Shown here piece by piece: positions 54,728 through 61,271 of a stretch of 64,000 nucleotides of DNA. Position numbers and translations under genes: made by a program. The stretch's first letter is position 1; the number at the start of each line of letters is the position of its first letter. The notes under the pieces are model-generated. The model was given only the letters and a program-made list of their open reading frames with translations. It searched no databases and was not told where the DNA came from. Source of the DNA: Polynucleobacter parvulilacunae (GTDB taxonomy: Bacteria > Pseudomonadota > Gammaproteobacteria > Burkholderiales > Burkholderiaceae). The stretch covers positions 1-64,000 of the forward strand of contig NZ_JACVPW010000001.1 in NCBI RefSeq assembly GCF_018881715.1, read 5' to 3'.

Positions 54728-54869
54728 GAGGGTTTGTGGCTTGAATCACCACCCCTGGCATTGTCCAAGAGCCCCTGTGAGCTGTCAAACTAGCTAAAGT
54801 GGAATTTTGGGAATATTCTCTTTTAATTCAATTACTTATGTGATTATAAACCGAGATGACCGACAAAGA

Positions 54870-54894
54870 AAAAACCACCCGTAGGTGGTTTTTC
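54870..54894. terminator. Rho-independent terminator
   Basis: AAAAACCACC-CGTA-GGTGGTTTTT. Confidence 0.85.
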
Positions 54895-54920
54895 AGACTA
54901 GATCGATCTAAGCGAGGGAT

Positions 54921-55493
54921 TTACTCCTTTTTAGATGCCTCAATGGCGATCAAGATGGTTACGTCGTCACCTACGTGTGGCGCGTATTTACCCATATTGA
55001 ATTCCGTACGCTTTACTTTAGTTTCTGCGTTAGCGCCGCAATAATCTACGCCAGACATTGGGTGTTTTTTGCACTCAAAGTTAGTAATTTTTAAAGTTAC
55101 TGGCTTGCTTACACCCTTCAGAGTCAACACACCCTTCAAAGCAACTGGCTTATCGCCTTTGAAAATCATGTCGTTAGATTGAAAGCTGGCAGTTGGAAAT
55201 TGTGTGGTTGATAAAAAATCTTCACCTTGGATATGCGTATTAAATAATGCAGATCCTGTATCAACAGATTTTGTATCAATCGTAATGTCCACACTACCTT
55301 TTTTAGCAGTTTGATCAATTGTTACGGTACCAGTAACGTTATTGAAACGGCTAGTTTGATTTGAAAAACCTAAGTGGTTGTATTCAAACTGTGCAAAAGT
55401 ATGATTTGCATCTGTTGTATAGGTAGCTGGAGCAGCGAGAGCAGAGCTCAAACCAATTGCTGCAAATAAAGCGATAAGTAATTTTGATTTCAT
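54921..55493 (-). CDS. YceI family periplasmic lipid/quinone-binding protein
   Basis: 'YTTDANHTFAQFEYNHLGFSNQTSRFNNVTGTVTIDQTAKKGSVDITIDTKSVDTGSALFNTHIQGEDFLSTTQFPTASF'. Confidence 0.95.
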   Translation of the reverse strand: MKSKLLIALFAAIGLSSALAAPATYTTDANHTFAQFEYNHLGFSNQTSRFNNVTGTVTIDQTAKKGSVDITIDTKSVDTGSALFNTHIQGEDFLSTTQFPTASFQSNDMIFKGDKPVALKGVLTLKGVSKPVTLKITNFECKKHPMSGVDYCGANAETKVKRTEFNMGKYAPHVGDDVTILIAIEASKKE

Positions 55494-55564: not shown

Positions 55565-56152
55565 CTATTTTTGATTTAAGACCAAATGCACATTGACCGG
55601 AACCTCATTAGCGACTGCAGAGGTATCGGCCCAATTTCCAGCGCCCAAGCCAAAATCTAATCTCAACATCTGAAAGCTCGCATCAAAAACCATCTGCTTA
55701 CCTTGAGACTGGTACTTCACGGCCATCAATAGCGGCACGGCTTTGCCTTTGATCGTCAGCGTTCCGCGGACATCTAGGCTATTCGGCCCAGTAGCCTTAA
55801 CGGTTTCTGTTACATAACTAGCCGTAGGGAAAAGTTTGGCGCTAAACCAGTCCTTACCCTTTGCCTCTTCTTGCAACTCGTCGCCACCAGCATTGAAACT
55901 AGAAATTTCAATAACAAGATTGGCTTTGGCTTTTTCTGGCTCTTCTGGATTAAATGAAATCTTTCCGGAGAATTTTCCAAAACCTCCAGAAATCTTCGAG
56001 CCCATCAACTTGCTTGTAAAAGTTATCTTACTTTTAGTGGCATCAATAGAAGAGTACTCTGTAGCATAGGAGGAACTAGCAACACTCATTACAAAAGCAA
56101 CAAACAGCACTCTTAATAGTGTTGGCATTTGAACCAAGGAATTATTTTTCAT
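55565..56152 (-). CDS. YceI family protein (second copy)
   Basis: 'YSSIDATKSKITFTSKLMGSKISGGFGKFSGKISFNPEEPEKAKANLVIEISSFNAGGDELQEEAKGKDWFSAKLFPTASY'; start at 56152, overlapping cytochrome b by 11 bp. Confidence 0.93.
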   Translation of the reverse strand: MKNNSLVQMPTLLRVLFVAFVMSVASSSYATEYSSIDATKSKITFTSKLMGSKISGGFGKFSGKISFNPEEPEKAKANLVIEISSFNAGGDELQEEAKGKDWFSAKLFPTASYVTETVKATGPNSLDVRGTLTIKGKAVPLLMAVKYQSQGKQMVFDASFQMLRLDFGLGAGNWADTSAVANEVPVNVHLVLNQK

Positions 56153-56690
56153 CAACAGAACCTCCAAATGTCATGCGACTCAACAAACCATCTTTATCGA
56201 TGAACTGATGTTTCAATGCAGCCAGGATATGAAGTCCAACCAATACCATCAGCCCATTTGCTAAAATCTCATGAATTTCCTTTAGTTGATGACCCAAGGC
56301 CTTATCTTTATCAACTAAATCTGGCAACTCAAATAAACCAAAGTAGTTCACCGTATACCCCTTTGCGGAACTCATTAACCAGCCCACTACGGGGATCGCC
56401 AGCATCAACAAATAAAGAGTGAGATGAGTTAGCTGCATAGCCTTTTCTTGCCATGCGGGCATTTGTAGCTTGAGAGGTGGCACAGAATGTGTAGCTCGCC
56501 ATAGCAAACGCAGTATCACCAAAAAGAAGATGGTGACGCCCAACCACTTATGCCAACTCAGCCCTGTGATTCTGGCGGGGCTCAAAGGCATGTCGTCGAT
56601 GGCAATTGCAATTGACCATGTTGTAAAGATCAAGAGCGCCATCACCCAGTGAAGGATGATGGCAATAAAGGTATATCTGACCTTACGCAT
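56142..56690 (-). CDS. Cytochrome b561-family membrane protein
   Basis: 'IILHWVMALLIFTTWSIAIAIDDMPLSPARITGLSWHKWLGVTIFFLVILRLLWRATHSVPP', 'EIHEILANGLMVLVGLHILAALKHQFIDKDGLLSRM'. Confidence 0.95.
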   Translation of the reverse strand: MRKVRYTFIAIILHWVMALLIFTTWSIAIAIDDMPLSPARITGLSWHKWLGVTIFFLVILRLLWRATHSVPPLKLQMPAWQEKAMQLTHLTLYLLMLAIPVVGWLMSSAKGYTVNYFGLFELPDLVDKDKALGHQLKEIHEILANGLMVLVGLHILAALKHQFIDKDGLLSRMTFGGSVDEK

Positions 56691-57244
56691 TAGCCGCGCA
56701 ATTGCTTAGTGATTTTTGCAATACGCTCCCCATAAAGACGCGCTGTCTCTAGGTCGCCTACATTAACTTCATCAGCACTTGCATCGGATGGGGTTTGCAT
56801 CATCGCACCGGCAAATGAACCAACATAGTTAACGTCGTCACGTTTAGCGGCTTTTGAATTTGAAGGCATCAACCCTGTACCAATCCATAATCCTGAATGC
56901 TGCATTGCCAGTGTAAAGAAGTAATGCAATGTGGAATGTTTATCGCCATTCATGGTTGCTGAATTCGTAAAACCTCCAAATACCTTGTCTTTCCATTGCT
57001 GCGAGAACCACTGTTTAGAGCTAGCATCCGCAAACTTCTTAAACTGCCAGCTCACAGTGCCCATGTAGGTTGGCGAGCCAAATACAATCGCATCCGCATC
57101 ATTTAAAGTCACCCATTGTGCATCGGTAATATTACCTTCAGCATCAATGGCCACCAGAGTGCCATTAGCGCCCTTAGCAACAGCTTCAGCCTGTTTTACA
57201 GTGTGGCCATAACCACTATGAAATACCACAGCTACTTTGCTCAT
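56690..57244 (-). CDS. Flavodoxin/NAD(P)H:quinone oxidoreductase (WrbA-like)
   Basis: 'VAVVFHSGYGHTVKQAEAVAKGA', 'DADAIVFGSPTYMGTVSWQFKKFADAS', 'KVFGGFTNSATMNGD'. Confidence 0.9.
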   Translation of the reverse strand: MSKVAVVFHSGYGHTVKQAEAVAKGANGTLVAIDAEGNITDAQWVTLNDADAIVFGSPTYMGTVSWQFKKFADASSKQWFSQQWKDKVFGGFTNSATMNGDKHSTLHYFFTLAMQHSGLWIGTGLMPSNSKAAKRDDVNYVGSFAGAMMQTPSDASADEVNVGDLETARLYGERIAKITKQLRG

Positions 57245-57272
57245 GTAATTCTCCTTGTCTTGCTCGGCTTGA

Positions 57273-57695
57273 TTAAAAGATGTCTTTCAATAACTTAAGA
57301 GATTTCTCAAGCTGTTGCAATTCATCTGATGATAATTTTTTAAATGCCTTATTTAAAAACTCCAAATGCTCAGGAAATACTTTTTCAAATACAGATTGAC
57401 CATCCGACGTTAATCCAATGAGCTGACTACGAGCATCCTCTGAATTCGCCTGTCTAAGAATGAGTCCTTTTGCTTCTAAGCGCTCCAATACACCTGTGAG
57501 CGTCCCTTTGGTAACCAAGGTCTTCTCCCCAAGCTCCTTACAGCTCATCGGCAACTGATTTCCCAAGGTTGCGATTACATCAAACTGTGTCATCGTCAGA
57601 CCCAAGGATTTAATGTGGGGTGCGGAATAACGATCAAACGCTTGATAGGAAGAAACCAGGTTTCTTAGGGTTGGTAAAAAGTTCATTTCTCTCAT
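57273..57695 (-). CDS. MarR family transcriptional regulator
   Basis: 'GLTMTQFDVIATLGNQLPMSCKELGEKTLVTKGTLTGVLERLEAKGLILRQANSEDARSQLIGLTSDG'. Confidence 0.95.
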   Translation of the reverse strand: MREMNFLPTLRNLVSSYQAFDRYSAPHIKSLGLTMTQFDVIATLGNQLPMSCKELGEKTLVTKGTLTGVLERLEAKGLILRQANSEDARSQLIGLTSDGQSVFEKVFPEHLEFLNKAFKKLSSDELQQLEKSLKLLKDIF

Positions 57696-57699
57696 TTAA

Positions 57700-57728
57700 A
57701 GTACTAATTAGGACTAGTTTAGTACTAA
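57700..57728. promoter_or_regulatory. Putative MarR operator (two palindromic half-repeats)
   Basis: AGTACTAATTAGGACT (near-perfect inverted repeat) plus TTAGTACTAA (perfect palindrome), immediately upstream of the marR gene. Confidence 0.65.
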
Positions 57729-57756
57729 CGCGAACTAAATGCAAGAACTACCAATA

Positions 57757-59245: not shown

Positions 59246-60226
59246 CTAAGGTGTCATCACAATCGCGCCTGAAACTTTTCGACCCTCTGCAGCACGGTGG
59301 GCATCAGCAGCCTGCTCCAAAGAAAACTTAGCACCAATTTGTACTTTAACCTGCCCTTTGGCAATTGCATCAAATACTGCTTTGGCATTTTCTTTTAACA
59401 ATGCTGCAGTAGCGTTATGCGGGAACACAGAAGGTCTCGTTAAAAACAGGCAACCCTTCTTGTTTAGAATTTCTGGCTGAATCTCTGGAGCTGGTCCAGA
59501 AGCCGCACCAAACAAAGCGACCGTTCCAAAAGGGGCAGTGCAATCTAAGGAACCTAAGAAGGTAGTTTTAGCTACAGAGTCATAAACCACGTTAGCTTTT
59601 TTACCACCAGTGGCTTTAATTACCTCTTCAACCCAATTCGGCTGCGAGTAATCAACAACCGCATCGCAGCCAGCCTCTTTGGCTGCTGCAAACTTTGCTG
59701 GCGAACCCACGGTACCGACAACAAATGCGCCCAAGGCTTTTGCCCAGCCAGCCAAAATCTGCCCAACACCACCGGCTGCAGCATGCACTAGGACAACATC
59801 GCCTGCCTTAACCTTATATGTCTTCTGAACCAGATATTGCGCCGTCATCGCCTTAAAGAAAACAGCGGCAGCTACCTCATCAGAAATATTGCTCGGTATT
59901 AAAACCAATTTATCAGCAGCAACATTACGCGCACTTGCATACGCACCAATACCTGCATTCATATAGACGACGTGATCGCCAACCTTCAAATCAGCAACGC
60001 CATCACCAACTAACTCAACGACGCCGGCGGCCTCATGACCAAGGCCAGTAGGCATTTCCAAGGGATAAACACCAGAGCGTTGATACACATCAATGAAGTT
60101 GAATCCAATAGCAGTTTGACGAATCTGCACCTCACCTTTTGCCGGGGGTGGCAATTCTTTGTCGATTACTTTAATTACATCTGCGCTACCTAGCTCAGTA
60201 AGACTAACTACTCGTGCTTTTGTCAC
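59246..60226 (-). CDS. Quinone oxidoreductase (zinc-type MDR superfamily)
   Basis: 'YQRSGVYPLEMPTGLGHEAAGVVELVGDGVADLKVGDHV', 'VLVHAAAGGVGQILAGWAKALGAFVVGTVGS'. Confidence 0.94.
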   Translation of the reverse strand: MTKARVVSLTELGSADVIKVIDKELPPPAKGEVQIRQTAIGFNFIDVYQRSGVYPLEMPTGLGHEAAGVVELVGDGVADLKVGDHVVYMNAGIGAYASARNVAADKLVLIPSNISDEVAAAVFFKAMTAQYLVQKTYKVKAGDVVLVHAAAGGVGQILAGWAKALGAFVVGTVGSPAKFAAAKEAGCDAVVDYSQPNWVEEVIKATGGKKANVVYDSVAKTTFLGSLDCTAPFGTVALFGAASGPAPEIQPEILNKKGCLFLTRPSVFPHNATAALLKENAKAVFDAIAKGQVKVQIGAKFSLEQAADAHRAAEGRKVSGAIVMTP

Positions 60227-60737: not shown

Positions 60738-61271
60738 TTACTTAATCAAACCACATGCAATGCGTGGCCCAGAATTTCCAGCGGGCTGAGATTTGTAATC
60801 ATCCGGATCGCGATGCACTACCACTGAGCGGCCAATAATCCCAGTTGGTCCAGTGTTGACTGAAAATCCATGTAACTTTGCTGTGTAAGTAGCGTTACCA
60901 CTTGCATCAGATTTAATGTTGGGTAAATCACCAGCATGATTCATGCCGCTGTTAGGCATACCGTGGGATTTCGTTTCGGGATTAAAGTGGCCGCCTGCAC
61001 TAGTTGCATCTGGAGCCGAGCAATCACCTTTTTCATGAACATGAAATCCCTGCTCTGAATTTGGCTTTAATCCAGAAAACTTACCATTGATCAGAACGTC
61101 GTTACCTTGCCATACAAAGTTAACTTCACCTTTGGCTTGTGAGCCTGAACGAGAATCTAAACTTGCACTGGCTTTTTGCCCTGTACCCTGTTCCATCGAT
61201 TGACAGGCCACCAAAGATAAAATTCCTATGGTGGATAGAGCAATTGAAACCTGCTTAAATTTTAATTTCAT
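60738..61271 (-). CDS. sodC: Cu/Zn superoxide dismutase, lipoprotein-type signal
   Basis: 'GFHVHEKGDCSAPDATSAGGHFNPETKSHG', 'GPTGIIGRSVVVHRDPDDYKSQPAGNSGPRIACGLIK'; lipobox 'LVAC'. Confidence 0.95.
   Translation of the reverse strand: MKLKFKQVSIALSTIGILSLVACQSMEQGTGQKASASLDSRSGSQAKGEVNFVWQGNDVLINGKFSGLKPNSEQGFHVHEKGDCSAPDATSAGGHFNPETKSHGMPNSGMNHAGDLPNIKSDASGNATYTAKLHGFSVNTGPTGIIGRSVVVHRDPDDYKSQPAGNSGPRIACGLIK

Follow-up and report, generated by a model that had tools for sequence, protein, structure and literature searches.

We analysed a 64-kb stretch of DNA (hereafter the window) from a 2.07-Mb Polynucleobacter genome, reading the open reading frames of the minus strand. In the order of transcription, this strand carries marR, a flavodoxin gene, a cytochrome b561 gene and two YceI genes (YceI-1 and YceI-2). 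The first encodes a MarR-family regulator of 140 residues (57273–57695, minus strand; Pfam MarR, 1.7e-15), whose translation more probably starts at Met4 (57686), the point where its homologues begin. After 28 bp follows a WrbA-like flavodoxin of 184 residues, a probable NAD(P)H:quinone reductase (56690–57244, minus strand; Pfam FMN_red and Flavodoxin_5). Its gene overlaps by 1 bp (TAATG) with that of the 182-residue cytochrome b561 (56142–56690, minus strand; Pfam PF01292 (Ni_hydr_CYTB), 3.7e-33), which in turn overlaps YceI-1 (55565–56152, minus strand; Pfam YceI, 2.7e-30) by 11 bp. The latter value presumes that YceI-1 starts at the ATG at 56152; an alternative TTG reading frame from 56167 is longer and less likely. 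YceI-2 (54921–55493, minus strand; Pfam YceI, 4.5e-39) is separated from YceI-1 by 71 bp in which no terminator was found, and both YceI proteins carry an apparent signal peptide. A hairpin with a U-tract 3' of YceI-2 (54866–54896, minus strand) is the probable terminator of the unit (−23.4 kcal/mol, z −5.1, equally stable in 0 of 200 shuffles), while the terminator of the preceding gene stands 5' of marR. The original prediction had described these five genes as tightly packed, and all five reading frames were recovered with their families upheld by Pfam and NCBIfam and both overlaps exact. It had, however, placed the second YceI within 55565–57695, an interval that ends 71 bp before that gene.

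The window's genome encodes no YceI protein besides these two and no DoxX protein, and contains three further b561-family genes. A Qor-type NADPH:quinone reductase and a Cu/Zn superoxide dismutase are encoded 1.5–3.5 kb upstream on the same strand (59246–60226 and 60738–61271), so the locus lies in a redox-stress neighbourhood.

The three distal genes are the lcoA-bcnA-bcnB operon known from Burkholderia cenocepacia, as judged by sequence and structural relatives. The best solved relatives of YceI-1 and YceI-2 are PDB 5ixh (8e-33) and PDB 5ixg (1.5e-35), which are BcnA and BcnB of B. cenocepacia, respectively (PMC9113575). In line with this assignment, no cysteine occurs in YceI-1, in agreement with what is stated for BcnA, and the cysteine pair of BcnB recurs in YceI-2. 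In B. cenocepacia, lcoA (encoding a b561), bcnA and bcnB are cotranscribed in that order (PMC9113575; order also in PMC6291622), which is stated to be general among beta-proteobacteria (PMC9113575) and which we found in 22 of the 23 family loci read outside Polynucleobacter. The window has b561, BcnA and BcnB genes in the same order on one strand, and its b561 gene is thereby orthologous by position within BCAL3312–3310. A part of this operon in lipid-peroxidation defence and antibiotic resistance has been demonstrated (PMC9113575, PMC6291622, PMC5350466): loss of bcnA or lcoA leads to more membrane lipid peroxidation and less antibiotic resistance, whereas loss of bcnB leaves peroxidation unchanged (PMC9113575). 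Induction by bactericidal antibiotics or paraquat is a further mark of the Burkholderia operon. The original prediction had implied that the set lacks a characterised counterpart, which the match to lcoA-bcnA-bcnB rules out for its cytochrome b and YceI members. Two differences from Burkholderia are apparent. The 71-bp gap between bcnA and bcnB shows no strong RNA fold (z 0.88), unlike the 63-bp gap reported there, and an intergenic RNA structure of the Burkholderia type was accordingly rejected. Moreover, the Polynucleobacter genes stand at the far end of a five-gene unit that begins with marR and flavodoxin, neither of which is mentioned in the main text of PMC9113575.

The flavodoxin had been labelled WrbA-like, which is fair as a description: its best solved relative is PDB 3d7n, a 'Flavodoxin, WrbA-like protein' (1.1e-73). 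It is not WrbA (NQO type IV) proper, since it scores below both curated NCBIfam cut-offs (85.3 versus 141 bits and 75.7 versus 132.5 bits), and because of these scores we infer quinone reduction rather than assign it. It shares the family of flavodoxin-fold quinone reductases with WrbA and with the enzymes of Candida albicans, which guard membranes against lipid peroxidation, apparently via reduction of ubiquinone to ubiquinol (PMC4556627). In contrast to these relatives, it is encoded in an operon together with an envelope partner.

Upstream of marR we recognized a promoter with a −35 hexamer TTGCAT (57739–57744, minus strand), whose TTGCA block is conserved across the upstream regions of the genus, and a likewise conserved −10 hexamer TAAACT (57716–57721, minus strand) at a distance of 17 bp. 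These elements are covered by two inverted repeats of a form akin to TTAGT(A/T)CG-N4-TAGTACTAA. Candidate operator 1 (TTAGTTC-GCGTTA-GTACTAA; 57719–57738, minus strand), for which 0.05 occurrences are expected by chance in the window, lies between −35 and −10. Candidate operator 2 (CTAGTCCTAATTAGTACT; 57700–57717, minus strand) overlaps the −10 hexamer and extends downstream of it. Such an inverted repeat is present in 50 of the 53 distinct marR upstream regions, versus 0.6 expected from shuffles, and occurs alike upstream of bcn-type operons and of operons that carry DoxX. A MarR-family protein with predicted operators over its own promoter is the layout of MarR-autorepressed redox/electrophile operons. 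Strong comparative evidence thus argues that MarR autoregulates via these predicted operators, and that one promoter would serve whichever genes stand behind marR; lcoA or bcnB may also have a further promoter ahead of it. Genome-wide, the operator pattern matched the two marR-promoter sites and one site inside murE, with 2 and 2 matches for reversed-pattern controls, so that a wider MarR regulon was dismissed and the scan yielded no further genuine operator in this genome. The Qor-type reductase and superoxide dismutase genes have no operator match either.

The regulator has a single cysteine, residue 52 (Cys49 if Met4 is the start), located where the first HTH helix begins. Of 58 homologues, with identities as low as 47%, 56 share this residue, and one might guess that it senses electrophiles. 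A peroxide sensor of the OhrR type was rejected, as this sole cysteine does not lie in the N-terminal helix and the protein reaches 56.4 bits against an OhrR cut-off of 200. In Campylobacter jejuni, too, MarR-family proteins control a flavin quinone reductase during redox stress, RrpA and RrpB being linked to the quinone reductase MdaB. There, however, RrpA is a positive regulator of mdaB, and the abstract of that report names no b561 or YceI partner (PMC8765430).

We then compared the locus across 151 Polynucleobacter genomes, among which the flavodoxin gene was found in 72, marR in 71 and bcnA in 28. marR and the flavodoxin gene are neighbours in 62 of the 64 genomes that have both. bcnA and the flavodoxin gene are adjacent in all 20 genomes with both, in the order flavodoxin-lcoA-bcnA-bcnB, and since the five-gene arrangement recurs in 20 of the 28 congeneric genomes with bcnA, it is far from chance. 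At the boundary between flavodoxin and lcoA the TAATG overlap is present in 17 of 22 distinct loci (the window counted once), and the remainder lie within 12 nt. Outside Polynucleobacter, no proximity of flavodoxin and bcn genes was seen in a 150-genome family sample, in which coordinates were compared by eye. Given the constant adjacency, the conserved overlap and the lack of close pairs in the family beyond the genus, we regard the junction as a Polynucleobacter arrangement that is maintained there. What is new is therefore this junction, by which lcoA-bcnA-bcnB is built into a MarR-flavodoxin operon. The co-occurrence beyond yceI and cytochrome b on which the original prediction had staked itself is thus seen at the level of the genus; conservation of the whole five-gene set holds inside Polynucleobacter and fails in the wider family sample. 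With the set confined to one genus, the case for shared function over chance fixation rests on one lineage and on a looser one in Methylococcales (see below). A flavodoxin tree within Polynucleobacter was resolved too poorly to count the origins of the junction. One isolate that carries the five genes is UK-Kesae-W10 (locus L121). One congeneric genome has a flavodoxin frame broken by two TGA and one TAA codons beside an intact marR. Among plasmids, 86 records with relatives were found, with identities of at most 64% among the matches listed.

The same comparison bears on the idea that two independent units merely stand side by side at the ccmA locus, with lcoA-bcnA-bcnB transcribed from its own promoter next to a MarR-flavodoxin pair and no functional coupling between the two. 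Both MarR-DoxX-flavodoxin-ccmA without bcn genes and lcoA-bcnAB-ccmA without MarR or flavodoxin occur at the same or a nearby site, and outside Polynucleobacter the modules are unlinked. But with the prevalent TAATG overlap, a separate lcoA promoter would have to lie within the flavodoxin gene, and the invariable adjacency in genomes with both modules speaks against independence, which we consider improbable. In one genome, lcoA-bcnA-bcnB lies by ccmA without MarR or flavodoxin and behind an unrelated lipoprotein-like gene (locus L057, 2067–3284), so the ccmA-side site takes either module.

The MarR-flavodoxin core also associates with other genes. In 28 of the 62 genomes with neighbouring marR and flavodoxin, the stretch between the two is longer and mostly gene-sized, with DoxX in the loci read; the 20 bcn-type genomes all lack it. 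In a sister lineage within Polynucleobacter, pirin and an RND efflux system (OEP, HlyD, AcrB-type) come after the core, in a MarR-DoxX-flavodoxin-pirin-RND operon whose MarR operator region is conserved (locus L140, 5114–12548, and likewise L142). At two further loci (L134, 6001–6767, and L101), marR and flavodoxin are directly followed by a BcnB-type YceI gene of 62% identity that runs off the contig, with neither lcoA nor bcnA between. In other beta-proteobacteria the flavodoxin gene usually follows pirin; DoxX and a divergently oriented LysR gene often accompany the two. Compared with such MarR (or LysR)-DoxX-quinone reductase-pirin stress operons of Proteobacteria, the window shares the MarR-flavodoxin core and operators with the DoxX-type Polynucleobacter operons, whereas lcoA-bcnA-bcnB takes the place of DoxX, pirin and RND genes, in a genome that is free of DoxX.

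Methylococcales, among them the isolate Methylobacter psychrophilus, have a BcnB-type YceI gene immediately before the flavodoxin gene; pirin comes next, and some loci also have a LigB-type dioxygenase after it. A BcnB-type YceI beside flavodoxin was recorded at six loci, from Methylococcales and one other proteobacterium. The Methylococcales flavodoxins are 81–88% identical to that of the window, which across orders suggests horizontal transfer of the flavodoxin gene, but their YceIs reach only 55–60% identity and branch separately from Polynucleobacter BcnB in a tree limited by long branches. The YceI-flavodoxin link therefore looks independently made in the methanotrophs, and on the same grounds a joint transfer of both genes between them and Polynucleobacter was not favoured.

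The core's other partners, DoxX, pirin/quercetinase, LigB and RND efflux, lend weight to the quinone or electrophile theme first proposed for the operon. Genes for pirin, LigB, azoreductase and DoxX co-respond in Pseudomonas fluorescens facing a fungus (PMC5557065), and the phenolic methyl gallate induces a yceI gene of Ralstonia (PMC8472277). The partners pirin/quercetinase, LigB-type ring-cleaving dioxygenase and RND efflux, together with the methyl gallate response, would also fit an operon for detoxification of phenolics and aromatics, in which the flavodoxin reduces xenobiotic or humic quinones, YceI and LcoA handle hydrophobic phenolics at the envelope and lipid peroxidation is secondary. 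We judge this unlikely, as the role of LcoA and BcnA against lipid peroxidation has been demonstrated in Burkholderia (PMC9113575) and the bcn-type operons that we read showed no pirin, LigB or RND genes.

Another reading concerns LcoA itself, whose closest solved relative is the superoxide:ubiquinone oxidase CybB of Escherichia coli (PDB 5oc0, 1e-17). In CybB, H87, H158 and D164 form the quinone site and R30, R35, R38, R108 and K134 the superoxide antenna (PMC11869295). Alignment to CybB and to other LcoA sequences places the heme histidines of this four-helix b561 at His14, His47, His140 and His154, and the quinone-site residues are kept as His89, His161 and Asp167. Since paraquat induces B. 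cenocepacia lcoA and bcnA (PMC9113575), LcoA might be a superoxide:ubiquinone oxidase of the CybB type in a superoxide-defence operon. However, only two of the five antenna positions are basic in LcoA (K110 and K137), those of R30, R35 and R38 being I31, L36 and A39. That is, LcoA largely lacks the superoxide-collecting arginines, and its gene shares an operon with lipocalins. We rejected LcoA as a superoxide oxidase by the antenna criterion and regard superoxide defence as very unlikely. Still less plausible is antibiotic capture as the main role, with BcnA acting as an extracellular antibiotic-binding lipocalin: B. cenocepacia BcnA is secreted and raises MICs (PMC5350466, PMC6291622), but its authors argue that antibiotic binding is not its primary function (PMC9113575), and capture would gain nothing from the MarR and quinone-reductase context.

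We therefore favour, as rather likely, a MarR-derepressed quinone/electrophile operon in which flavodoxin in the cytosol, LcoA in the membrane and BcnA/BcnB in the periplasm would keep ubiquinone reduced against lipid peroxidation. A MarR-controlled unit across these three compartments had been proposed from the outset, and it gains support from the conserved operator pairs over the marR promoter and the consistent co-occurrence in the genus. The operon would join two modules, marR-flavodoxin as a quinone/electrophile-response core and lcoA-bcnA-bcnB as an envelope defence against lipid radicals. MarR very probably represses the operon via the two predicted operators that cover the marR promoter. 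A reactive phenolic, quinone or oxidant may free MarR, possibly through Cys52; this inducer class is suggested by the core's partners, the co-response in P. fluorescens (PMC5557065) and the Ralstonia yceI response to methyl gallate (PMC8472277). Flavodoxin would then reduce quinones in two-electron steps at the cytosolic face, and LcoA, to judge from its residues and from PMC9113575, may pass electrons between membrane quinone and the cargo of BcnA/BcnB. In the periplasm, BcnA would carry a quinone or a hydrophobic antioxidant and quench lipid radicals. With the modules joined, a single signal could raise the carrier along with the ubiquinol on which it draws.

In a stronger, speculative form that we hold to be doubtful, a quinone- or electrophile-sensing MarR would directly run a trans-envelope ubiquinol relay of flavodoxin, LcoA and BcnA/BcnB that quenches lipid radicals, DoxX, found within this operon in sister species, would do the equivalent job in the membrane, and BcnB would be a quinone-linked lipocalin. 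The latter is proposed because of the separate pairing of a BcnB-type YceI with this flavodoxin in methanotrophs.

The work on Burkholderia left open what reduces LcoA and BcnA and which further proteins take part. The operon described here puts forward a particular quinone reductase of the cytosol and a regulator as candidates for this defence, and suggests that an electrophile signal controls protection against lipid peroxidation. Two further proteins gain a lead that can be tested: BcnB, for which no phenotype is known, and DoxX, which takes turns with lcoA-bcnAB behind one promoter. Polynucleobacter abounds in freshwater rich in humic matter, a setting in which photo-oxidants and compounds resembling quinones are to be expected, so a testable tie of electrophile sensing to quinone reduction and to lipid protection at the envelope would make ecological sense. 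If the signal is indeed a quinone or electrophile, defences on both sides of the cell membrane and within it would probably come on together.
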